This document shows, piece after piece, positions 3,198-32,085 of a DNA stretch of 64,000 bases. Source of the stretch: Dactylorhiza incarnata (taxonomy: Eukaryota > Streptophyta > Magnoliopsida > Asparagales > Orchidaceae); NCBI GenBank assembly GCA_033032865.1, contig JAWHQI010000099.1, forward strand, positions 6,403,501 through 6,467,500, given 5' to 3'. A program made the position numbers and the translations under genes. The notes below the pieces were generated by a model, which saw only the letters and a list, made by a program, of their open reading frames with translations, was not told the origin of the DNA and ran no database searches. How positions within the stretch are numbered: position 1 is the stretch's first letter; every line of letters starts with the position of its first letter.

Positions 3198-3465
3198 TGA
3201 ACATTCATAGATTTTTTTATGTTTGTAACACTTTTGTATTCAACATAACCTCCACATGCTTTGTATTGTTTTTATTCTGTGAAATTATGGGCGGATTCAG
3301 TTTAATGTTATGGTATTGTGCCGTGCCTGGGAAAAAATATAATGCTTTGATGCTTTTTGGATCCTGTCGGGATTGAACCGTGCTGTGCCAAAAAAAATGT
3401 TATGTTTACACAAACACACACACACACATATAAACACGCACACACAAACCGTTCGGCCAGCGCCA
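3198..3465. other. MULE spacer with a CA-rich microsatellite
   Basis: No gene is visible. An AT-rich stretch is followed by a short (CA)n run around 3411-3430 and then the palindromic array. Confidence 0.6.
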
Positions 3466-4118
3466 GCTGTTCGTCGAACGGCCAGGCCGTTCGACGAACG
3501 GCCAGGCCAGTTCGTCGAACGGCCAGGCCAGTTCGTCGAACGGCCAGGCCAGTTCGTCGAACGGCCAGGCCAGTTCGTCGAACGGCCAGGCCAGTTCGTC
3601 GAACGGCCAGGCCAGTTCGTCTTCGTATATGTAGCAGTTCGACGAGCGCCAGTCGTTCGTCGAACGGCCAGGCCGTTCGACGAAATGGCCTGGCCGTTCG
3701 ACGAACTGGCCTGGCCGTTCGACGAACTGGCCTGGCCGTTCGACGAACTGGCCTGGCCGTTCGACGAACTGGCCTGGCCGTTCGACGAACGGCCAGGCCA
3801 GTTCGTCGAACGGCCAGGCCAGTTCGTCGAACGGCCAGGCCAGTTCGTCGAACGGCCAGGCCAGTTCGTCGAACGGCCAGGCCAGTTCGTCGAACGGCCA
3901 GGCCAGTTCGTCGAACGGCCAGGCCAGTTCGTCGAACGGCCAGGCCAGTTCGTCGAACGGCCAGGCCAGTTCGTCGAACGGCCAGGCCAGTTCGTCGAAC
4001 GGCCAGGCCAGTTCGTCGAACGGCCAGGCCAGTTCGTCGAACGGCCAGGCCATTTCGTCGAACGGCCTGGCCGTTCGACGAACGACTGGCGCTCGTCGAA
4101 CTGCTACATATACGAAAC
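3466..4118. repeat. Palindromic array of 21-bp units (gttcgtcgaac + ggccaggcca)
   Basis: About two dozen units of 21 bp, each made of the near-palindrome gttcgtcgaac plus ggccaggcca. A direct block (about 3490-3620) is followed by inverted units (about 3680-3790), then a second, longer direct block (about 3790-4050). A flank of about 70 bp at 3621-3690 (cgtatatgtagcagttcgac...) recurs as its reverse complement at 4050-4118, so the segment 3621-4118 is bounded by inverted repeats. Because 21 is a multiple of three, long frames with seven-residue repeats are open on both strands. They are by-products of the repeat, not genes. Confidence 0.93.
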
Positions 4119-4476
4119 TTTTCCCCGACACATAATCTCCTAAACCACCACAGAACCTTCAGATTTTTAAATCTCTCATAATATCCATATCTTCAGCATA
4201 TACAAAACTTTTCCCAAGTGAAGAGGCGGTTATATAAGATTAAACACAGAATATACTTTTCAATTGGTAAATATATCATAAAATATCATGTAGGAGAAGC
4301 TCAAAAATATACTAATATTGTGTTGTTAGGAAGAACTGTAAACTAGAAAAAACTGCAATCATTAACTGTAATGCCTTCATTAATAGTTCATTAACTCCAT
4401 GTTCGATATTTAAATCATATTGTTCGATATTTAAACCATAATGTTCGATATTTAAACCATAATGTTCGATATTTAA
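4119..4476. repeat. AT-rich spacer with a 21-bp tandem repeat (tgttcgatatttaaaccata)
   Basis: The first part is AT-rich with no gene. From about 4399 to 4476 there are four tandem copies of a 21-bp unit containing gttcgatatttaaa, ending at the stop of the Ulp1-like gene. This places it in the 3' flank of that gene. Confidence 0.75.
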
Positions 4477-18214: not shown

Positions 18215-19050
18215 TGTTTGCCCGGAAAACCGCTTCTCGGGTTGGACCATTAGCAGACCGTTCGAACTCCTGGGACAGGCCGCTGGGTCCCGGGATCAGC
18301 AGTTCCCAGTTCAAGAAGGGCCAGGCCGGGCGGCCTGGTGTCATTTCCGGATCGCCCCCAAAGGGAGAAGATCGTCAAAAGCTAAGGCAAAAAGTTCATC
18401 CGCAGTCTCAGCTAGAAGGCCGCGCGGGTTGTCCCATAGAAACTCGAGGTTCCAGCCCCGAAGAACAGGCCGGGGCTCCAGATCAAAGGCTATCCAAGTT
18501 ACCTCGTGAAGATCGGCTAAGTCATGACCAGAAGGCAGACCGCGGTATCAATCTCCAAACCGCGCGGTCTGTATTATTGACTTAGTCCCGGTATCCTCAG
18601 CCTCAAGTCAGACGGGTAGGGAAGGCAGGCCGTCAGGTCGCGCGGCCTCTTTCTTTTTTCTTCTCTATGCATCCCGTCACCGCCTGCCCGTTTCTCCTGT
18701 ACCCGGGCAGGAGGTTATTTTATCCCTGCCCATTCGGGCAGGCCCCCAAGCCTATAAATAGGGGGCGGCACTGTTCACAAGACACGCACACTCGAATCGA
18801 AGAGCTCGCTTGTCGGAGCTCCGGTCTCGAGTTTCAGGTCTTGCGAACTGTTTGACCGGCCGGCTTCTGCTTTCCTGCACTTGTAACCGCTACTTTTCAA
18901 TCAAAGGAAAGCCCGTCGCAAGAGTGGCATTTGCCGCGGCGGGCGAAGTCCGGCCTCGACCGCTGCTAGCGGTCTAAATTCTCTAACCAAATAGTAACCG
19001 ATAATCCGCAGCCCTCGATTTTCTTTGTGAGCGCACTTTTGAATCGAACA
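18215..19050 (+). repeat. Element F 5' LTR
   Basis: 836 bp, tgtttgcccgg...gaatcgaaca. It contains several GACCGCGCGGTC-like palindromes (for example near 18407, 18558 and 18638) and the promoter TATA box. Five substitutions separate it from 31250-32085. Confidence 0.96.
18752..18760 (+). promoter_or_regulatory. TATA box of the element F 5' LTR promoter
   Basis: ctataaatag, followed by a G-rich stretch. It has the position and context of an LTR promoter, about 290 bp before the LTR end. The same motif is at 31788-31795 in the 3' LTR. Confidence 0.75.
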
Positions 19051-19101
19051 GAAACACGCGGCCTTCAGATCGCGGACTATCAGCGAAATCTTTGGTTCAG
19101 A

Positions 19102-22100
19102 ATGTCAGACCGCCAGTTCCCTCCAAGAGACCAGTCCGATCATAGCGATGACTCCCTGTGGGAGGCTCTGGAGCAAACTAAGAGAGAAGCCGACCAGGCT
19201 CAGAAAGCAACTGATCAGCGTCTGGACGCGATCAGTCAGGCTCTAGCTCTGCTAACCAAGCGGTTAGCCCCCCAACAGGCCGCGGTTAACCCGGCCATGA
19301 CCCCTGTTCTACCTCCTCCACCTCCATACCCATTTGCGCAGGTCGCTCACTCCCAACCGCCACCAGAAGGTTCTGCGGATCGGCAGAATTTCTACCAAGA
19401 GGCCGCGCGGCGTATGCCGGCTCGAGTCCTTGACTTCCAGGGGGCGGCTTCTCAGGCCGCTCGCTTTTCCTATCCGCCTGAGGTCGCCGCCTACCAGTCC
19501 TACCCGGCCGGAGCACCTGCCCGCTCCTATCAGGCGGCCTGTCCGCAAATGACCGCAGCAGAGATCCCCTACCACCCTGCTTTTTCTCTATACGAGGATG
19601 CCGAGGAGAGTTCTCCCTTCACGGATGAGATCCGGGGAGAGCCGGCTCCGAATAACTTTCGAGAACCACGCTTATCAACATATGGTGGGGAGTCCGATCC
19701 GGCAATTCATCTTCAAGCGTTTGAATCGGCTGTTGCTCTGAGGACCATCACTGATGCAACTAAGTGTAAGCTCCTGGTGACGTCCTTCGATGGACAAGCC
19801 AGAGAATGGTTCTATGGATTGCATCCTCGATCCATTAGATGTTTTGCAGAACTGCGTAGAGAATTTCTGCTTCGATTCTCTACCTCGAAAAAGAGGAAGA
19901 ACGGTCCGGCAGCCCTATTTGAGATACGGCAGCAGGAAAACGAAACGTGGGCCCGCTTCGTCGACCGTTTCCAAAGGGAGATAATGGAGGTGCAAAACGT
20001 CGATCCAGAGTTATATAGGGTCGCTCTGATGCATGGCCTTAGGGAGGGGCCGCTGAAATTTGAAGCTCAAATCAGGGAGCCAAAAACATACCAGGAGATG
20101 ATTAGTCTGGCTAACAAATTTATCAGGGGAGAAAAGACCAATCCTGGTTATGTTGCCAAATTGCTCAGTAATAACGATCAGTTTAATCCCGCATCAACTC
20201 ATCAGCAACGTTACAATCATCCATCTCGGCCTAATTTCGAACCCCGGGCTCAGAGGGGGAGGAATCTTAAGCCTAAACAACCATTCCTCGGCCATCAACG
20301 GTTTCAAGATCAGAAACCGCCGTTGGCCATCACACCCACTCAACCCATGGGAGCTCCGCAAATAATGCCTGTATATCTGCCGCAGTACATCGCACAACCA
20401 TCCCCAACTATCCCATCCATCCGATATGATGAATCTCAGGAGTCGTTCACCCCTCTCAACGTCACCATGAACGAGGTCGTGCAGATTCTCCAAAAGAGGC
20501 CTGACTTCAAGAGGCCTCCTCCCTTGAAATCAGAAATTCGTAACCGGAACCCTAACTTTTATTGTGAATATCATAAAGAGGAAGGGCATCAGACTGAGGA
20601 TTGTCGGGCCCTCCGGTGGTTGATAGAGAAGCTCCTGAAAGAAGGGAAGCTCCGAGGGTTGATTCGGCAAGAAACCCCGGTTGAGCCGCGAACCGAGAAG
20701 AAGAAGGAAGTGGTCGAAGTGACCTGGGAGTGTGCTGATGTGGAAGAGGCAGGTTGCTATGGGGATATACATCCCACAACCGAGTGTATAGAGGTGAATG
20801 ACGTTGGCCCTCTTGGCAACATCTATTGCATTCATGGTGGGGCAGGAGTAGAATCTTCTCGGAAATCTAGCATCGGGAGAGTTACGAAGCAAGAAGTGGC
20901 AGTCGCCTCCACTTCTACTCCAGAAAGGGCGGTCGTTACCTTCGGCCAAGAAGATCTTTCCTCAAATGCAAATCCTTTTGATGATGCAGTGGTGATAAAG
21001 GCGGTTATTGAAAACTACACCGTGCACAAAATTCTGATTGATACCGGCAGCTCAGTTAATCTCATTTTCCGCGAAACATTCGAAGCCCTTAAAACTGGAA
21101 AGTCTTTACTCTCCACGGAAGGGCCCCTCTATGGCTTCTCGGGAGAGAAGAAGGAAGTGGAGGGGTGCATAAAGCTTTTGGTATCGCTGGGGGGTATAAC
21201 AAAGCTGATAAACTTCGTGGTGGTGGAAGCCCCAAGCAGCTACTGTGCAATTTTCGGAAGGCCAATTCTGAACGCTTACAGAGCGGTAGTATCTACCTTC
21301 CATTTGGCATTGAAGTTCGCCGCTGAGGGGCGTCAATATCGGATCCGGAGTGATCCAAGGGTTGCTCGCGAATGCTATGTAAAGACAGTCAATGTGATCA
21401 CCGAGGCACCACTTCACAAGGCTCAGAATGACATCTACGAGGTGTCCAAGCTCCCTGAGGAAATCAAAGAAAGCACAGAGCGGAAAGGAGTTTACCTGGA
21501 ACCTGCCCAGGAGATCCAAGAAGTCCCCATTGCTGAAGGGGAAGAGAAGAAGCTGATCGTCAACGCCGAGCTGTCGGAAGAGGAAAAAGCTCAACTAATC
21601 TCCTGCCTGTTGGAGAACTTGGACATCTTCGCCTGGTCAGCGGAGGACATGCCTGGGGTAGATCCAGACATAGCATGCCATCACCTCAACGTCTCTCCTG
21701 AATTCAAGCCGATCCAACAAAAGAAGAGGGAGGTGGCAACAAAGCTGGCATTGCCCATCAGAGAGGAGGTTTCCAAGCTCCTAAAAGCGGGTTTTATTTC
21801 TGAAATTCAATATCCAACGTGGATGTCAAACATTGTAATGGTTCCAAAATCTGGTGGGAAGTGGCGCATGTGCGTAGACTTCACAAAGCTCAATAAAGCG
21901 TGCCCCAAAGATTGCTATCCCTTGCCTCGGATAGATGTCTTAGTAGATTCCGCGGTAGGATATAATTTCATGAGCTTTCTAGATGCATTTTCTGGTTATC
22001 ACCAGATTAAGATGCATAAACCTGATATCCCGCATACATCCTTCATTACCAATGATGGATGTTATTGTTATCTTGTCATGCCCTTCGGGCTCAAAAATGC

Positions 22101-24720
22101 GGGGGCGACATATCAGAGGATGATGGACACAGTATTCAAAAAACAGAAAGGGAGAAATCTTGAAGTATATGTAGACGATCTTCTTCTAAAAAGTAAAACT
22201 TTTTCAAACCATCTGAAAGACCTCGTAGAGACGTTCGCTACTCTGCGGAGGTTCAAATTAAAACTAAATCCTTTGAAATGTGTGTTTGGGGCCAACAAAG
22301 GAAAATTTCTGGGACACCTTCTCACTCCTAATGGCCTCGCGCCAAACCCAGATAAAATAAAGGCCATCCTGGACATGACCCCTCCTCGCAATCCGAAGGA
22401 AGTGCAGCAACTTGGGGGGAGGTTGGCAGGATTGAGCCGATTCATTTCCAAGTCGGGGGATAAAAGCGCTCCATTTTTCAAAACACTTAGGGGAGGATCT
22501 AAGTTCGAATGGAGTGAAGAGTGCGATAATGCTTTCGAACAGTTGAAAAAGCAGTTAACCTCAACCCCTCTTCTTCAAAGCCCTCGCAAAGGGGAAACAC
22601 TATTCTTATACTTAGGAGTGGGCCCAGATGCGATAAGCTCTGTCCTGGTGCGGGAAGAAAAAAAGAAGTAGTTTCCGATATATTATGTCAGCCACATCCT
22701 CAAAGATGCGGAAACTAGATATTCAATCTTGGAGAAATTAGCCTTGGCTTTGGTCATGTCATCACGAAGGCTCCGCCCCTATTTTCAGGCTCATTCCATT
22801 CAGGTGGTCTCGGACCATCCACTAAAGAGCATCTTGGAAAAGCCGGATCATTCAGGAAGGTTGGCCAAATGGGCAATCGAGTTAAGCGAGTTCGAAATAT
22901 TATACATTCCCAGAACGGCAATAAAGGCACAAGTATTGGCAGATTTCTTGGTAGACACGATGGAGTCTAATCCAGAACAAATAATGCAATCTCCCTTGGC
23001 TTGGATCATTTATGTGGATGGGGCTTCTGGCAGAAACTCCGTGGGAGCCGGAGTGGTTCTGATCAGTCCAAATGGCATCAGGCTGGAGCAGGCTATCAAA
23101 TTCTTCTTTTCAGTTACAAATAACCAGGCCGAATACGAAGCATTCTTGGCCGGCTTGAGACTCGCGAAGGAGCTTGGGATAGAACACGTTCATGTGAAAA
23201 CTGATTCTCTTGTGATGGCTTCGCAGGTTCTAGGGAATTATGAAACAAGAGAACCGATATTGAGAAAGTATCTATTTTTAACTAAGAAAGAAATTGGGAG
23301 ATTCAAATCCTTCATTATCGAACACATTCCGAGAACACAGAATGAAGGGGCAGACGAATTGTCAAAGTTTGGTCTTCCATCAGGAGGGGTGACCTCAGAA
23401 CTCTTTCGTCCGGCAATAGATGAGACAGAGAAAGAGGAGCTCATGCAGATCGATCAGCATCCTTCCTGGAAAAACCCCTACGAATTGTTTCTGTCAAAAG
23501 GAGAGTTTCATTCATCAATCAAGGACAGAAATAGATTCAAAAGAAAGGCAGCCTACTACTACTTGATGGCAGGAGTCCTGTATAGAAAAACTCTGATTTC
23601 TCCCTCAGCGCGATGTGTCTCAGAAGAAGAAATTCCGATCGTACTTCAGGAAATTCATTCAGGAGAGTGTGGTAGTCATTCAGGAGCAAAGACTTTGGAG
23701 AAAAGGATCTTGCGGCAGGGATATTTCTGGCCGACCATGAGGAAAGATGCTGAAGCATTTGCCAGGCGATGTGTCCAGTGCCAAAAGTTCGCTCCTCTTC
23801 AACATTTGCCTGCTCAGTCGCTCAGGTCGATAACCGCGCTGTGGCCCTTTGCAGTATGGGGAATGGATCTTATGGGACCCTTTCCGATGGCCAGCGGTCA
23901 GCGCCGTTTCATCCTTGTAATGATCGACTATTTCAGTAAGTGGATTGAGGCAAAAGCGCTGGCGAAAACAACAACTCAAATTGTCAAAAACTTCATCTGG
24001 GGGGAAATAATCTGCCGACATGGAATTCCGTTAGCAATTGTTACCGATAATGGTCCACAGTTCAACAATTCCGAGATGAAAAGCTTCTGCGATCAGGTGG
24101 GAATTGATCTGCGATTTTCCTCAGTACATCATCCCAGGACCAATGGTCAGGTGGAAGCAGCGAACAGGCAAATCCGGCAGCTCTTGATGAAAAGGGTCTT
24201 AAATCAAAAAGGGAATTGGGCGGACCAGCTTCCTTCCATCCTTTGGACTCTTCGTACTACGCCATCTTCAGCTACAGGGGAGACGCCGTTCAAACTATCT
24301 CATGGCTCAGAGGCCGTTGTTCCCGTAGAATTTGAAGTGGTCACTCCAAGGGTTATATATGCAAAAGAGGGAGGAGAATCATGTATGGATGAAAATGATG
24401 AGGCTATGAGGTATAGTCTGGATCTGATCGAGGAGCTTCAAGACGAGGCAACTATCAGACAGGAGGAAGTTAAAAGGAGGATGGCAAAATATTTTGACAA
24501 GAATGTCAGAGTAAAGCAGTTCGCAAGCGGTGATTTGGTATTAAAGAAGGTAGATGCTGCAGCCAGGTCTGGTAATGTTGGAAAGCTGGATCCTAATTGG
24601 GCAGGACCTTTTATCATCAAAGAAGTATTAAAGAACGGGGCCTACCGTCTCCACACCAGTGAAGGGGAAGACATCCCGCGTACTTGGAGCGGTGACGATC
24701 TTAAACGATTCTATCCTTGA
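19102..24720 (+). pseudogene. Element F Gag-Pol (single internal stop)
   Basis: One frame from the ATG at 19102 (51 nt after the LTR) to 24720, with one TAG at 22669-22671 where FPIYYVSH follows in frame and Gln is expected (CAG to TAG). Domains in order: Gag (IHLQAFESAVALRT... near 19700-19880), a Tat-type knuckle CEYHKEEGHQTEDC (about 20560-20605), protease LIDTGSSVN (about 21035), RT with the catalytic YVDD (about 22168), Gypsy RNase H (22480-22960), archaeal-type RNase H with YVDGASG, NNQAEYEA, KTDSL and EGADELS (23010-23370), and integrase. The integrase has HSGECGSHSG / CVQC, then D (WGMDLMGP), D (VTDNGPQ) and E (NGQVEAANR), and a C-terminal domain to 24720. The stop lies between RT and RNase H, so it is more likely a mutation than a regulated readthrough site. 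Confidence 0.93.
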
Positions 24721-25069
24721 ATTATCTCTTTTATTCTCTACATTTCTTTTTGTATTAAATGAAAAGCCCTATACTGACACCTCTTCTTGTCTGATGGTTC
24801 TCTACATTGTGAATGCAAATATACATATCTCACTCCCCAAACCTCTGAGATATCGCCGAATTCTGCTCGAACCCCCTCGGATTGTAGTCGTAGCGTAAAA
24901 ACCCACCAAGACCATGTGATGCGGGGAGTTTTCGCACACGTGTAGTGGTAGCTTGCCAATTCCGCTGCGGAGGTCTCCAGAATTTTGGATCCCGGCCGAT
25001 ATCTGACACACCCCTGCATCAAGGGAGGTCTAGGTGATTGTCAGCTCTATCATGCCCTGAAGGGATATA
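24721..25069 (+). other. 3' flank of element F pol, no gene seen
   Basis: Non-coding. It starts T-rich after the pol stop; I recognise nothing specific before the hairpin repeats. Confidence 0.5.
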
Positions 25070-25079
25070 GTTACAGCTT

Positions 25080-25378
25080 TGATGATCTTTCTGAGGAAAG
25101 CAATGTTCGCCGCCGAGGCCCACCTGCCCAACTGATCATCATAGTCTGTGACCATCGAATACTCTTAGGTACTCTCAAAACGGTGCCTAGTTGGGCCCAC
25201 AACTGAGTTGATCTCTCTGAGGAAAGCAATGTTCGCCGCCGAGGCCCACCTGCCCAATTGATCAACTCGGCTTGTAACCCTAGGCAAGAGAGCGGATGAG
25301 TCGTTTACAGCTCTTATGACCACTTGAGGAAAGCAATGTTCGCCGCCGAGGCCCACCTGCCCACTTGGTCATTTGAGT
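25080..25378. repeat. Three hairpin units: identical 38-nt core, covarying stems
   Basis: The core at 25093-25130, 25219-25256 and 25326-25363 is identical over 38 nt (starts gaggaaagcaatgttcgccg, ends cacctgccca). Each copy is closed by a different stem: GATGATC/GATCATC (25081-25087 with 25134-25140), GAGTTGATC/GATCAACTC (25205-25213 with 25260-25268) and ATGACCA/TGGTCAT (25316-25322 with 25366-25372). In copies 1 and 2 the stem-to-core spacing is the same (5 nt and 3 nt). Sequence between units is unrelated. Paired changes that keep complementarity are the classic sign of a structured RNA; function and strand are unknown. Confidence 0.88.
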
Positions 25379-25685
25379 CTGTACATACCTTTTTTATTCT
25401 CTCTACAGGGAGGTATTTGCCTCTTATGGTTTCTTGTATAAGAACAATTCGAGGAAGATTCGGTTAAAACAGGTGCAGGTGTTCGTCTACCCTAATAAAG
25501 GGTTATGATATTAAGACCGTGCGGTCTGTACATACCTTTTTTATTCTCTCTATAGGGAGGCATTTGCCTCTTATGGTTTCTTGTATAAGAACAATTCGAG
25601 GAAGATTTGGTTAGAACAGGTGCAGGTGTTCGTCTACCCTAACAAAGGGTTATGATATTAAGACCGTGCGGTCTGAACATCTAAA
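25376..25685. repeat. Tandem repeat of about 153 bp, two copies
   Basis: From gtctgtacatacc (25377) through aagaccgtgcg (25514), and again from gtctgtacatacc (25528) to ccgtgcggtctga, with a few differences. Each unit ends with the palindrome gaccgtgcggtc. Confidence 0.85.
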
Positions 25686-26786
25686 CCGAACGGTCTGATT
25701 GGATATAAGTTGGGATATTTCCTGGCAATTATATAATGACCCGAGTGGTTATCCAACCGGGCGACCTTATCAATTTTTTAATTAGGTATCTCCGGAACCG
25801 ATCATCTATTACCCGGGTGGCATTCAAGCCGGGCGGGTCCATTCATCTTTTATAAATTGATATTTCTGGAACTAATACATATAATTGCTCGGATCTCATT
25901 CTGGCCGGACGGTTTTATCTATCTATCCATCCTTTAATAAGTTGGATGTTTTTAGATTTAGTCATATGATTATCCGGATTGTGTTCTAGCCGGGCGAATC
26001 TGTCTGTCTTTAAACTAAGTTGGATATCTCCAAAGCTGATTATCTGATTGTCCGGGTTGTATTCAAACCGGGCGGGATCATCCATCCTTTATAAAGATTG
26101 AATATTTTTGGAGCTAATTATATGATCGCTCGGGTTACATTTTGACTAAATCGGATCTATCTATCTCTCCATTCTATCAAGTTGTATTTCTGGATCTGGC
26201 TATATGATCCGGGTTGAATTTTAAACCGGCCGGGCACTATCTATTCCTGAATGAATAGTCGAAATTGGATATTTCTGGATCTGAATACATGGTCGCTCGG
26301 ATTGTGCTCTAACCGATCAGGTTAAGCTATTTCTTAGCGAAAATTATCTCTAGACACAATGGATTGCTCGCCAGGACTGAATTCGAACCGCGTGAAAGTT
26401 GTTCATTATTTATAGCAGCAAGTATAAAATATCTTCAAATGAAAAGAAGCCGCCCGGTCTATATTATAGTCGCATAAGTCTATGCGTTATGGATCACACT
26501 ATCAGAAATTAGGCGTGTTGAGATCTAAACAAGTAATCGCACGGTTCGGACAAAGGATCGTCGAAGATAATCCATCATCACTTATGCTCGGACCAGGATG
26601 TTCGCGCGGTTGGATCATAAAGAGCAAAGAAAAGAGACAAGGTGTCACAAGTAAGTAATAATAGAAGGACAATCAGACAGGTAAAATCTCTGTTTCATTT
26701 TTTCAAAATGTGTTTACAAAATATTGACCGCCCGGCCAACAAAAAGAAACCGGCGGTTACAAAAATTAAAACAAAAGACAAGGGCA
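25686..26786. repeat. Degenerate tandem units with ccgggcgg / ccgcccgg motifs
   Basis: From about 25700 to 26350, diverged units of roughly 80-95 bp alternate a gga-ctga-tat-tgat part with an aaccgggcgg-type motif and catcctttataaattgatattt. The remainder up to the stop of the antisense gene is non-coding with scattered gaccgcccggtc palindromes (26443, 26721). Confidence 0.65.
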
Positions 26787-28655
26787 CTAATCTGCCGATA
26801 CTTTCTTCTTCTTCTTGACAGGAGAATTTGAGTCCGCACCATCGATGTCAACCTCCGGCGAATAACCTTCGCTTAAAGAGGAGGAGCCGAATGAACTGCT
26901 GTCACTAGACCGCCCGGTCTTGCTTGCAGAACCGGTGGTTCCAGAGGACAAGCTGTCCTCGTCGTCGTCATCGCTGGCATCACCATCCGCGTCGGCTTCT
27001 TCAGCGGCTTCACCACTTCCATCGCCTCCTTGGTGGAGCACGATCTCCCTGCCCGCGTCGGCCTCGGCCTCCTCGCCTACCTTGGATTTTCCTTTTTTCC
27101 TTCGGCTGATTTCGTCAAGTTGGACCTTCAAGGCGGGGAAGAGGTCGGAGAAGGTGGTTCCATCAAATCCTTCACACAGACCGCCCCGGTCACCTATGAG
27201 ACCCAAGGCTTTGTCGATCCCCTGGGCCACATGAGGCAGCACTTCATCTTGGAAGGCCGGGTTGGTCACCTCATATTGCTTCTGCAAGAAGAGGAAAAAT
27301 GAGTTAGGCCGCTCGGGCTAAACAAAGGGAACCGCGTTGTCTTTTGAGAAACTCACCGCCACGACTTCTTGAAGCCGCGCGTTCTCCTCTCGAAGCCGCG
27401 TATTCTCCGCAGCCTGCTCCTCGTACTTCTTCTCCAGGTGTTTCTGAACAGAAACTAGCCGCTTATACGCCAAGGCCATGAAGTGGTTGGCCGAAAACCC
27501 CCAGGCGCCGGCTTGAGCCGCTAGCCGGGGGAGCTCTTCTTCAGGGGTTCTCATCAGCTTCCTTAAAGTCTTTCGACCATACAAGGCGGCCCCAGCGGCT
27601 AGGGCATGGCGTTCAATTTTGTCGCTCCCCCATGGAGGAAGAGCGGTGGATACCTGGATCCGGCTTCCATCCCTATGCCAAAGGACGGTCGGATTGCCTT
27701 GCAGATCGGGCGGGTTCCCACAAGAGCGAAGGAGCTCGTAGTCATCAGGAGAAGCCGGGCCTTCTTCCTCAGACGATAGCGATCTGTTTCGCTTTAGCCT
27801 CTTCTCCCTTTGAGTCAAAACCGGGACGACTGGCGTGACCGGCTTGTTCGCAGGGACGGCGTGGGCAGCTGAAAAGAGAAAACAAAAGTGTAAGTAACGA
27901 AGTCCGCGCGGTTACATACAGGCGGTCTGAAAGAACTTACTATGCTCAGGGAGGATATCCTCCAGCTCCGAGAACAGCGGGATGTAGTGGTTGATATCCA
28001 ACCGCTCGTTCTCAAGGAACGCGAAGGTGTCCGCCTCAATCTTTCCGACCTGAGGGATCTGGAAAACTTCCTCCCCTCGGACTTGCGGGTTGGTCTGCAA
28101 CAGTCCGAAGTTGCCTTCGAGCATTACGAACCGCTCCGACCAGTCGGAGACTTTATTCGCCAAATTGACGATCTTCAACCCATGGCAGCCGAAGTAGAGG
28201 TGCCCCCTGTAAGCTGAAGTCCCCGAGTCGGAGGCAGCCCGCACCGAGAAGAACTTTCTGAATAGGTCGAGGGAGAACCTGATCCGCTCGAACCGCAGGT
28301 ACGAGATGAAACTATATATGGAGGCGATGGAGTTCGGTGGAAGTTGACCGGGTACGACCCCGTAAGGGTCGAAGATGGCTATTACTTCAAGCGGCAGTGG
28401 AAACTTGAAGCCATATTCGAAGTGGTCAACCGGGATAGCTATCTGGTGCGGATTGGAAGAGTTAAACCGCTCATCGCGTAGAGGAAGCCGCGCGAGTAGA
28501 TTACTCCCTGCCATGTGTTTTGCGATGAAATCGTCCAGTTCGCTCTGAGTAAGGCGGCATTCCGGATGGTCCCCCGAATGGAATGCTAAGGCCGCATCAG
28601 CTCGGACGGCTTTAACTTTAACAGGTCGCTGCGACTTGTTCTTGGATCGCGCCAT
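26787..28655 (-). CDS. Antisense gene 1 of element F: Transposase_28-like protein, three exons
   Basis: Predicted exons on the minus strand: 28655-27941, 27868-27357 and 27281-26787, giving 573 residues. Introns are 27940-27869 (gtaagt...cttttcag, phase 1) and 27356-27282 (gtgagt...ttgcag, phase 0). Both remove in-frame stops and keep the frame. The N-terminal part (EYGFKFPLPLEVIAIFDPYG, VPGQLPPNSI, SLDLFRKFFSV) resembles the plant Transposase_28 / putative gypsy-type transposon domain. A coiled coil follows (KHLEKKYEEQAAENTRLREE), then an acidic Ser/Asp tract and a final basic KKKKK, a possible nuclear signal. A TATA box lies 37 nt upstream of the ATG. The biochemical function of the family is not established. 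Confidence 0.82.
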
Positions 28656-29003
28656 CCGGAAATCGTGAGAATGACTTCGAAGAATTCCCTACTTATAGAT
28701 TTCTATGATCTGTGAATAGTAAAATCATATCGCGGCTATACATTCTAACCGCGCGGTCAATGATCTAAATGGTTAGATTCACCAGAAAAATAAAAGAAAC
28801 AAAGGCATCCAGGAAAACAGAAACAAGCATACATCACAGATCGAGCGACCTGAAGTCGGTTCGAATAAAGCATGAGATCTAAAACAGAACACAAAGTATA
28901 GCGGTTAAATAAGAGACCGCACGAGTTATCCAGAATACAAGACAAAAAACATTGTTCAAATCAATAAGCCACGCTTATAGTACAAATTGTTCTCAAAAGC
29001 CGG
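28656..29003 (-). promoter_or_regulatory. Promoter region of antisense gene 1
   Basis: Minus-strand TATA box tataagtag at 28689-28697, with the ATG at 28655, implying a very short leader. A ccgcgcggtc palindrome lies at 28749-28758. The rest is the gap between the two antisense genes, with no other gene seen. Confidence 0.6.
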
Positions 29004-29779
29004 TCACGGCTGACGGCGTTCTGGGGAGACATCCTCTCGGTGAAGTCGCGCAACCTGGTCACTGGTTGTGTTCAGGAGAGAGTAAATCTGGCTTGTATGA
29101 TAATGAAGGTGGTTGATTGTGCTATGAAGCCGCCCGGCATCCCTTTCGACCCGCGTAGCCGCAATCATACGGGGGGTTGCGACGGCCTCGTCAATCATTG
29201 GATCAGCCGCCCGGACTAGGGGAGGATTCGAGCTCGCTCCAATAGTCGGGCGGCTAACAGCTACCACCCCATCGTTCATATTTCGCCGACCAGCGGCGAC
29301 TTCTCTGGTTAAACACAGGAATTTATCCTGGTAATATTTCGAGTCGCTCTCAAATTTAGTAGAGGCTCTCTTCTCCTTCTCCAGTTGAGCGGTTAGAGCG
29401 GCTCGCGTAGCCACCACTGCTGCCCGCGCGGCCTCAAGCTGCGTCTCCAGGACTTTCTCCTTTTCTGAGCCGGATTTCCTGTTGATCTCCGACTGCGCCT
29501 TCAGCGCCTCTTCAGCCTTCTTCCTCGCAATCTGCTCAGCCTCCAGAGCGGTCCGAGTGGCGGCCTCCCGGTCTTCTACCTCCTTCAAGCGGGCTCTCAG
29601 GTCGATCAGATCTTCCTCGAGATGGTCAAACAGCTGCGGTCCTTCCGGCAAAGTCGTTGCACTGATTGGAATCAGTGGAACTAACGGAGGCAGGCCGGCC
29701 TCAAGGTCGCCCGACTTCGTAACCTGGTCCACGCTATCTGAAAGAAGCCGCTCGGTTATGGAAAGTAAGAGCATGCAAC

Positions 29780-29840
<61 letters not shown>

Positions 29841-31061
29841 GAACATAAATACAAAAGCAGTGCCTGGACGGACAGGCCACTTAGACCGTTTCGGATTCAC
29901 TAATTTATTTTGGCGAGGCCGCGGAATGGAGAAGCGGACAGCTTTATAGTCCGTGGAGCCCTTACCTGCCACAAGAGGATCAGGCCGCGACGGCTTGTTC
30001 AAAGTTCGTCCCGCCCCCTCCTTCTTCACCATCATTATTTCTTCCCCGGTCATCGCTGGGGGAACTTCCTCCCGCGCTTTCAGCACTTCTTCAATCTCCC
30101 TCGTTCTCTCTTCGACCTCCAAGGCAGTCCGGGCGGCAGCTTCTCGTTCTTCGGCCTCCGTCCGAGCGGTCTCTTCGGGCCGGACTGTATTATCAGTGGC
30201 AGAGGGATTCTGTCTGGAAACAATCGGGCTGTCAAGAAGCTGATCTCGCTTCACCAGCTCATCCATACCCCTGAAGATCCCATTAAAAGATAAGCTGCTC
30301 GCCGAGTCCGGAGGAAGTTCGCCCGGTTTCGTATCAGGGGTAGCCGGTGATTCATTTGACTTGTTGGGTGGAGGAGTCGCAAGACCTAGCTCCTCCTTTA
30401 GTCGCGAATTGGTCTGGAGGAGGGATTCAGTCGGTTTCTTAAGGGCCGCCCTTTCCTTAGCGGCTAACCTCTTGACCTTCTTCGTTATCCGCTCGGTCAC
30501 GGACCCGGTCTTCTTCCTTTTCCTCTCCTTCTTGCTCGGAGCTGGGCTAACTTCTTTGGAAGGGCTGGGGTAGTCGTCCACGGACAAGGGGGTATTCAGA
30601 TCGCCCGCCCTTGGGGAGTTGACCGCCTCTTCCTCCAAGTTTCTAACTAGCAGATGGGGGTTCCCAGAAGGAGTAATCTCCATGCCAAACGAGTCGTTTT
30701 CGCCGGTCTTCTTCGAAGGGCTACCGGTACCAGCTTTTTCGGGAGGAGCGGTCTCCTCTTTGTTCAGCGGGTTGGCGACCTGTTGACCAGGGTCTTCTGA
30801 AGGAATCAGCGGGTCACCAAGAAGAGGCCTCGAACTGTTCGCCACGGGCTCTGCAGGAGTATTGGGAGTTGTTAAGTCCACGACCGGCTTGAGGCTATCC
30901 GCTGCGGCCTTCTCGGCCCGCTTTCTCTTTTTCCGGTCCTTCCGGTCTTGCTTTTCTGTCTCTTTATTCGACTTCTCCGACGGCTCGCGCCTCTTATCTT
31001 CCGCCCTCTTTTGATCTCCGCTGGGATCCACGCGGTCTAGCACAGCGTCTAAGAAGTCCAT
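29004..31061 (-). CDS. Antisense gene 2 of element F: charged coiled-coil protein, two exons
   Basis: Exon 1 31061-29966 and exon 2 29737-29004, predicted 609 residues. The intron 29965-29738 (gcag|gtaagg...tttcag|a, phase 1) contains a (TA)n run, and removing it deletes a spurious IYIYIY stretch. The N-terminus is rich in Lys, Arg, Glu and Ser with basic clusters (DRKKRKRAEK, KKERKRKK) suggesting a nuclear protein. Two similar coiled-coil blocks occur, one per exon (EEREAAARTALEVEERTREI and EDREAATRTALEAEQIARKK), an internal duplication. I recognise no enzyme domain. A TATA box lies about 100 nt upstream. Antisense genes at this place are known in several Tat-lineage elements. Confidence 0.75.
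29783..29837. repeat. (TA)n microsatellite in the intron of antisense gene 2
   Basis: About 27 uninterrupted AT dinucleotides between a conserved donor and acceptor. Likely length-variable between copies and prone to assembly error. Confidence 0.95.
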
Positions 31062-31156
31062 TGCTGAAGAATCGCCGGTCTTAAAAATTCTAACCGCAAC
31101 TGGCGAGTAATACCCCGTGATTTCAGGAAAAACTCCGCAGAATGAATTCTCTGGCT

Positions 31157-31164
31157 CTTTTATA
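31157..31164 (-). promoter_or_regulatory. TATA box of antisense gene 2
   Basis: On the minus strand tataaaag, about 97 nt upstream of the ATG at 31061 and inside the internal region, so the gene does not need the LTR promoter. Confidence 0.65.
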
Positions 31165-31249
31165 GAATTTAAGGCAGGTCGGATGCGGTCTCCCGGTCAA
31201 AACTAATATTTTCGAAATTCTCTTGAGATTTGAAAATATGCGGGGATTA

Positions 31250-32085
31250 TGTTTGCCCGGAAAACCGCTTCTCGGGTTGGACCATTAGCAGACCGTTCGA
31301 ACTCCTGGGACAGGCCGCTGGGTCCCGGGATCAGCAGTTCCCAGTTCAAGAAGGGCCAGGCCGGGCGGCCTGGTGTCATTTCCGGATCGCCCCCAAAGGG
31401 AGAAGATCGTCAAAAGCTAAGGCAAAAAGTTCATCCGCAGTCTCAGCTAGAAGGCCGCGCGGGTTGTCCCATAGAAACTCGAGGTTCCAGCCCCGAAGAA
31501 CAGGCCGGGGCTCCAGATCAAAGGCTATCCAAGTTACCTCGTGAAGATCGGCTAAGTCATGACCAGAAGGCAGACCGCGGTCTCAATCTCCAAACCGCGC
31601 GGTCTGTATTATTGACTTAGTCCCGGTATCCTCAGCCTCAAGTCAGACGGGTAGGGAAGGCAGGCCGTCAGGTCGCGCGACCTCTTTCTTTTTTCTTCTC
31701 TATGCATCCCGTCACCGCCTGCCCGTTTCTCCTGTACCCGGGCAGGAGGTTATTTTATCCCTGCCCATTCGGGCAGGCCCCCAAGCCTATAAATAGGGGG
31801 CGACACTGTTCACAAGACACGCACACTCGAATCGAAGAGCTCGCTTGTCGGAGCTCCGGTCTCGAGTTTCAGGTCTTGCGAACTGTTTGAAAGGCCGGCT
31901 TCTGCTTTCCTGCACTTGTAACCGCTACTTTTCAATCAAAGGAAAGCCCGTCGCAAGAGTGGCATTTGCCGCGGCGGGCGAAGTCCGGCCTCGACCGCTG
32001 CTAGCGGTCTAAATTCTCTAACCAAATAGTAACCGATAATCCGCAGCCCTCGATTTTCTTTGTGAGCGCACTTTTGAATCGAACA
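31250..32085 (+). repeat. Element F 3' LTR
   Basis: 836 bp, the same ends as the 5' LTR and 5 differences. The bases just before it (gcggggatta) form only a weak polypurine tract. Confidence 0.96.

Follow-up and report, generated by a model that had tools for sequence, protein, structure and literature searches.

Three hairpin units with an invariant head and covarying stems, a candidate structured RNA element in a Retand-type retrotransposon of Dactylorhiza incarnata

Repeats and structured elements in retroelement RNAs, and the locus in Dactylorhiza incarnata

Tandem-repeat arrays in the region between pol and the 3' long terminal repeat (LTR) of Retand/Tat retrotransposons were reportedly described by Macas in 2009. 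According to one study, roughly half of the Retand elements with recent activity contain such repeats in this region, where they mostly adjoin pol or the LTR, and their origin and function are called unknown (PMC11963269). Retroviruses, as outlined in parts of two papers, export their unspliced RNA by means of structured transport elements (PMC7551171, PMC11379458), the transport element of the second paper being situated close to the genome's 3' end, and the stability element of Rous sarcoma virus is described, in excerpts of two others, as shielding a stop codon that precedes a long 3' untranslated region (3' UTR; PMC2925335, PMC5580461). Here, we analyse 64,000 nucleotides of the orchid Dactylorhiza incarnata (assembly GCA_033032865.1, contig JAWHQI010000099.1, positions 6,403,501 to 6,467,500 of the forward strand; the whole stretch is called the window), in which an LTR retrotransposon at 18215-32085 harbors, downstream of pol, three hairpin units with an identical 38-nt core. 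Judged from their sequences, these units are a well-supported candidate for a structured RNA with a conserved shape.

The known Retand/Tat arrays share the lineage and the region with these units, are family-specific and often lie next to pol, and, as far as the relevant sections of two papers go, they are arrays detected by Tandem Repeats Finder (TRF), with at least three units of 8-100 bp (PMC11963269, PMC7004042). In contrast, the units described here form no TRF array, their spacers are dissimilar, and only the hairpin and its head are kept. A search of PMC7004042 found neither the term 'hairpin' nor 'secondary structure', and hairpins with a fixed core are unmentioned in the consulted parts of PMC11963269. 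Retand elements are known to have tandem repeats in this region, whereas our literature searches, which do not establish absence from print, brought up no hairpins that combine an invariant core with covarying stems. Five core pieces of 15-16 nt had no match in published papers, and an exact 26-nt piece had none in prokaryote genomes; an exact 19-nt piece gave a single match in viral contigs, which by eye looks like an ordinary phage coding stretch.

The three units and the evidence for selected pairing

A first-pass annotation of this DNA, made from its letters, had reported three identical copies of the 38-nt core, and a search of the window recovered all of them at the given places. They are the only matches with up to three mismatches in the 64,000 nt, where none is expected by chance. 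When aligned, the three units, each 84-85 nt long, share a single register:

25070-25154, + strand: unit 1, with arms 25073-25087 and 25134-25149, bulge at 25145, and core 25093-25130
25196-25280, + strand: unit 2, with arms 25199-25213 and 25260-25275, bulge at 25271, and core 25219-25256
25304-25387, + strand: unit 3, with arms 25307-25321 and 25367-25382, bulge at 25378, and core 25326-25363; its 5' spacer is one base shorter

Each unit begins on the outside with a helix of 4 pairs, followed by a one-base bulge, which is on the 3' side and has the same position in all three copies; further inward come a helix of 11 pairs and short unpaired spacers, which enclose the core. The self-complementary stems that the annotation had quoted do exist, and the spacer lengths that it gave for copies 1 and 2 (5 and 3 nt) are correct; the stems proved to be longer than it had stated, comprising 15 pairs in one register with a bulge, and the distance from the pol stop, given as about 360 nt, was close to the 353 nt that we measured to the beginning of the 15-pair stem of unit 1. 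RNAalifold recovered the same stem without an imposed structure. Degenerate further copies were not detected, as a covariance model matched only the three units in the window and, when run unfiltered on 24700-31300, gave besides the units only their mirror images and matches at E 0.89 or worse. The pairing inside the core can be no more than an energy prediction, since the core is invariant; for the sense strand, the model gives a near-certain GCC/GGC helix and leaves GCCGA as an open loop. Outside the hairpins, five of six comparisons between spacers and outer flanks showed no similarity, and the sixth (24990-25069 versus 25388-25450) was matched by 16 of 300 shuffles.

The pairing itself is what suggests selection. 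Standard pairs fill 42 of the 45 cells of the aligned stems (93.3%), compared with 20-36% in six controls in which the arms were slid by one to three columns. The claim that the flanks differ in every copy was too strong, as eight of the 15 pairs are identical in all three units; five show double-sided changes, one changed on a single side, and one deviates by an unpaired cell alone. At the five double-changed pairs, pairing is kept in the changed copy, and two of these pairs also hold one unpaired cell. Altogether, the stems contain three mismatched cells and one G.U cell. Comparison of the units with each other shows 7, 9 and 12 differences over the 30 arm positions. When unconstrained drift from a paired ancestor was simulated with a simple model (star tree, uniform substitution), none of 20,000 runs reached 42 cells (mean 34.6, maximum 41), and the probability that a 38-nt core stays invariant in three copies at the rate of the arms is about 3e-9. 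Because of the simulation, this core probability and the dissimilar spacers, the stem looks to be held as a shape and the core as a sequence, with the spacers apparently free.

Shuffling of the flanks equalled the uninterrupted stems of 8, 9 and 7 bp in 5, 1 and 8 of 2000 cases, and the local pairing scores of 14.8, 13.4 and 12.3 in 0, 0 and 1 of 2000. The window holds other palindromic sequence, and its background is less favorable than the shuffles: at random window sites, runs of at least 7 bp in the same geometry occurred at 210 of 20,000, and local scores of at least 12 and at least 14 at 29 and 15 of 3000, respectively. Column shuffles, which are weak with three rows, equalled the observed pairing in 12 of 500 cases, and the measure of 'further pair types' carried no signal with these rows (258 of 500). 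The earlier impression that paired changes around a fixed loop are the signature of a functional RNA structure is nevertheless supported by the shared register, the five double-sided changes, the bulge, the dissimilar spacers, and the sense z-scores given below.

Template-switch mutation occurs in hairpins, and the pattern could therefore be a mutational artefact, in which template switching during reverse transcription copies one arm from the other and short gene conversion homogenizes the heads. However, copying of arms would tend to erase exactly what is seen in the stems, namely the bulge in three of three units, the three mismatched cells and the G.U cell, and gene conversion would need to end at the edges of the head in every copy. 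We consider such an origin quite unlikely.

Strand, possible role, and competing explanations

The fold z-scores of units 1, 2 and 3 are -3.35, -2.98 and -3.37 in sense, and -2.12, -1.10 and -3.01 in antisense orientation. A finer scan (85-nt windows in 4-nt steps from 24720 to 26400, 420 windows) gave -4.0, -3.2 and -3.9 in sense, and -3.0, -1.5 and -2.3 in antisense; on the + strand, the two deepest of the 420 windows fall on units 1 and 3, and unit 2 ranks tenth. One U.G cell in the stem of unit 2, and another in unit 1 just beyond the 15 pairs, can pair only in sense RNA. As the z-scores are better on the + strand in all three units and the U.G cells pair on the sense strand only, the folding models make the functional strand lean sense, short of proof.

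The first-pass annotation had listed packaging, dimerization, 3' end formation, self-cleavage and protein binding as possible roles, and all of these are still hypothetical. We propose that a single cis-acting RNA element is present three times in the 3' UTR of the Retand genomic RNA in its unspliced form. Each copy would be a long bulged stem that presents the fixed 38-nt head; the stem would be conserved as a shape, its letters drifting pairwise, and the head as a sequence, so that each of its letters would be recognized, most likely by an RNA-binding protein. Triplication would provide several docking sites on one RNA, and the bound protein could let the long unspliced RNA exit the nucleus or evade the decay of messages with long 3' UTRs. 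This role is suggested because the units, 353 nt after the pol stop, open the 6.5-kb stretch that ends at the 3' LTR. That the units are transcribed, that a protein binds them, and that they act in export or protection is what we infer, and we see about an even chance that the units are a triplicated protein-docking element of the unspliced genomic RNA that serves its export or its protection from decay. More tentatively, they might represent a new family of post-transcriptional control RNAs in plant Ty3/gypsy elements, in which a triplicated hairpin recruits a host export or decay-blocking factor, as a plant counterpart of the retroviral transport or stability elements and possibly partnered with the antisense Transposase_28 protein; this wider reading is possible, though less likely than not. 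The kilobases behind pol carry repeats and antisense open reading frames (ORFs) in Retand elements, and a fixed head on a covarying stem is evidence of selection as RNA on part of them. The 85-nt unit offers a testable handle on how long unspliced RNAs of plant LTR retrotransposons exit the nucleus, escape decay, and enter particles.

Several observations weigh against this proposal. Its base is three copies in one element of one genome, known by sequence only; position is the sole guide to the choice among export, stability and packaging, and no export or stability motif was recognized in the units. The core alone folds no better than its shuffles (z 0.34). The raw minimum energy is lower in antisense than in sense orientation for unit 2 (-26.6 versus -25.4) and unit 3 (-29.7 versus -27.7), and the finer scan has more windows at z of -3 or below on the minus strand (20 of 420) than on the plus strand (10 of 420), the deep minus-strand windows lying mostly in or just past 147-nt repeats and reaching -4.5. 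In a coarse scan (90 nt, step 30), none of the eight windows of the hairpin block is at z of -3 or below (minima -2.6 on the + and -2.88 on the - strand), and windows of that depth are found in the LTRs, in parts of gag-pol, and further downstream.

The structure might instead act on the antisense strand, for instance as part of the 3' UTR in a transcript encoding Transposase_28. This would suit the raw energies of units 2 and 3, as the stem forms on that strand too, and both antisense ORFs (27912-28655 and 29004-31061) are oriented toward the units. We regard it as very unlikely, since the sense z-scores are better in three of three units, the U.G cells of units 1 and 2 become A.C, and the units lie 2.5 kb past the Transposase_28 stop.

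The next best reading after export or protection is that the hairpins are packaging or dimerization signals, and that Gag binds the fixed heads and loads the genomic RNA into particles. Several hairpins with a fixed head would suit a Gag target, and the gag ORF has a Retrotrans_gag domain. However, retroviral packaging signals are mostly located at the 5' end. In Ty1 as well, the sequences for packaging are found in the first 580 nt from the 5' end (PMC4974528). Self-pairing of the core is weaker than the shuffle mean (-17.7 versus -22.0), and the pairing of the core with the leader was equalled by 21 of 60 shuffled cores. Packaging or dimerization is therefore unlikely in our view, though still to be reckoned with.

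Two further explanations concern the core. It might act as a double-stranded DNA element, for instance as an enhancer with a GCC box, as GCCGCC occurs once in it and TGGGCC once on its reverse strand, which we take to be motifs of that kind; such an element would not need covarying arms, and motifs like these are much shorter than the identical block, which makes this highly improbable. Equally improbable is self-cleavage, with the units as ribozymes of a class not yet described. Ribozymes typically combine an invariant core with a covarying stem whose sequence is free, and plant retroelements can carry them, as retrozymes reportedly do (PMC4918200). The first-pass annotation had compared the core by eye with hammerhead, HDV-like and twister-type features and could not match it. 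No Rfam ribozyme family was detected in 24700-26500 even with permissive filters. At E values up to 5, this region gave one weak match only, HSR-omega_2 with 16.7 bits of 55, which lies outside the units, and Rfam 15 had no match at the gathering cut-off in the whole window. The hammerhead motif CTGANGA is present in units 1 and 2 only; there, CTGAGGA is overlapped by the core's sole GAAA, so that no room is left for the second helix of a hammerhead, and unit 3 has no CTGA at that place. In addition, three cleavage sites within the genomic RNA would destroy it.

Two other candidates were rejected. A coding role was considered for a 77-aa antisense ORF (25071-25304) that has two cores in frame, the third being 107 nt on and out of frame; the core is open in several reading frames, and in a comparison of the ORF with proteins, five candidates shared words with it, none of which reached E 10. 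As for long-range pairing, 36 of 60 shuffled cores did as well as the real core with the rest of the element, and 21 of 60 with the leader.

The host element, its neighborhood, and comparison with known structured RNAs

The element that contains the units has the following features:

18215-19050, + strand: 5' LTR, 836 bp, with TG...CA ends, 99.4% identical to 31250-32085, with a CTTGC target duplication
19027-24720, + strand: gag-pol region in two ORFs, from the ORF list and Pfam
27912-28655, - strand: antisense ORF with Transposase_28 (PF04195), from Pfam, E 9.9e-08
29004-31061, - strand: second antisense ORF, 685 aa, from the ORF list, without a Pfam match at E 0.001
31250-32085, + strand: 3' LTR, from the comparison of the LTR pair, with ends set by reading

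The 5-bp target duplication CTTGC flanks the element. Since the LTRs are 99.4% identical and the target duplication is present, the element is young, and the differences between the units were therefore most likely carried through replication. The gag-pol ORFs span 19027-22671, with the first codons within the 5' LTR, and 22729-24720, and contain the Pfam domains Retrotrans_gag, RT, RNase H, a second RNase H, and integrase; a match to a retrotransposon protease stays below the Pfam cut-off. The second RNase H (RVT_3, residues 97-214) lies between RT_RNaseH (2-55) and the integrase domains (299-469), and the stretch from pol to the 3' LTR (24721-31249) measures 6,529 bp. In Retand elements, as far as the consulted parts of the sources tell, the second RNase H (aRH) is placed between RNase H and integrase, as it is also in Ogre elements (PMC6317226), the region from pol to the 3' LTR has 2,933-6,566 bp, and an antisense Transposase_28 ORF is common in this region (PMC11963269). 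As the place of aRH, the antisense Transposase_28 ORF and the long region behind pol all agree, the host is, by domain order and antisense ORF, a Ty3/gypsy element of the Tat clade and Retand type, by which the Tat-type assignment of the first-pass annotation holds and is narrowed by the domains.

For the C-terminal part of pol (22729-24720), the six best matches, among the best 120 of 2134, are Platanthera zijinensis proteins with 57-65% identity. Pol relatives were not found in viral contigs, and two distant matches (25-28% identity) came from bacterial metagenome-assembled genomes. The gag-pol frame is broken at 22671-22729 within RNase H, which yields the two ORFs, and from this break the present copy may be non-autonomous. 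A primer binding site starting with TGG is not seen directly 3' of the 5' LTR (19051-19095). Inside the 685-aa antisense ORF, 27.5 AT dinucleotides (29783-29837) are translated as Tyr-Ile repeats.

Further repeats surround the units. A 147-nt repeat with 2.1 copies (25377-25680, TRF) begins within the 3' arm of unit 3, and both of its copies have a pyrimidine-rich stretch that ends with CTACAG or CTATAG before GGAGG and by eye resembles a 3' splice site. Eight degenerate repeats of 75-87 nt with a mean column identity of 63%, missed by TRF, occupy 25725-26359; when this array was tested for a signature like that of the units, with a putative ninth repeat at about 26360 excluded by eye, only a weak 4-pair CCGG/CCGG dyad of the consensus, with one double-changed pair, was found. 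The palindrome ACCGNNCGGT occurs nine times in the window, against 0.21 expected, and seven of these copies are inside the element (starting at 18559, 25516, 25663, 25685, 26909, 28748 and 31594), with the same place in both LTRs; a protein of the element or of the host could bind to it. Outside the element, 3357-4181 is minisatellite-like, with three long overlapping ORFs (two on the + and one on the - strand) and repeats such as RRTARPV.

Among the structured RNAs with which the units can be compared, the constitutive transport element (CTE) lies downstream of genes and is, like the units, a structured site in unspliced retroelement RNA. As described in part of PMC7551171, it is 150-175 nt long, forms a stem-loop interrupted by two internal loops, and recruits NXF1-NXT1. 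The units differ from it in being three separate hairpins with a partner that is only presumed, and the comparison on sequence level was made through Rfam alone. Hammerheads are defined by conserved core motifs and three helices. Those of retrozymes, in the available description, share with the units a fixed core, free stems, and a plant retroelement as host (PMC4918200), but their core motifs do not fit the units, which have no Rfam match. The Rous sarcoma virus stability element, which shields a stop codon from nonsense-mediated decay, resembles the units in its place behind a stop codon and in the very long 3' UTR that this codon precedes. Its minimal form, according to excerpts of PMC2925335, comprises 155 nt immediately after the gag stop, whereas the units of the Dactylorhiza element are triplicated and begin 353 nt past the pol stop.
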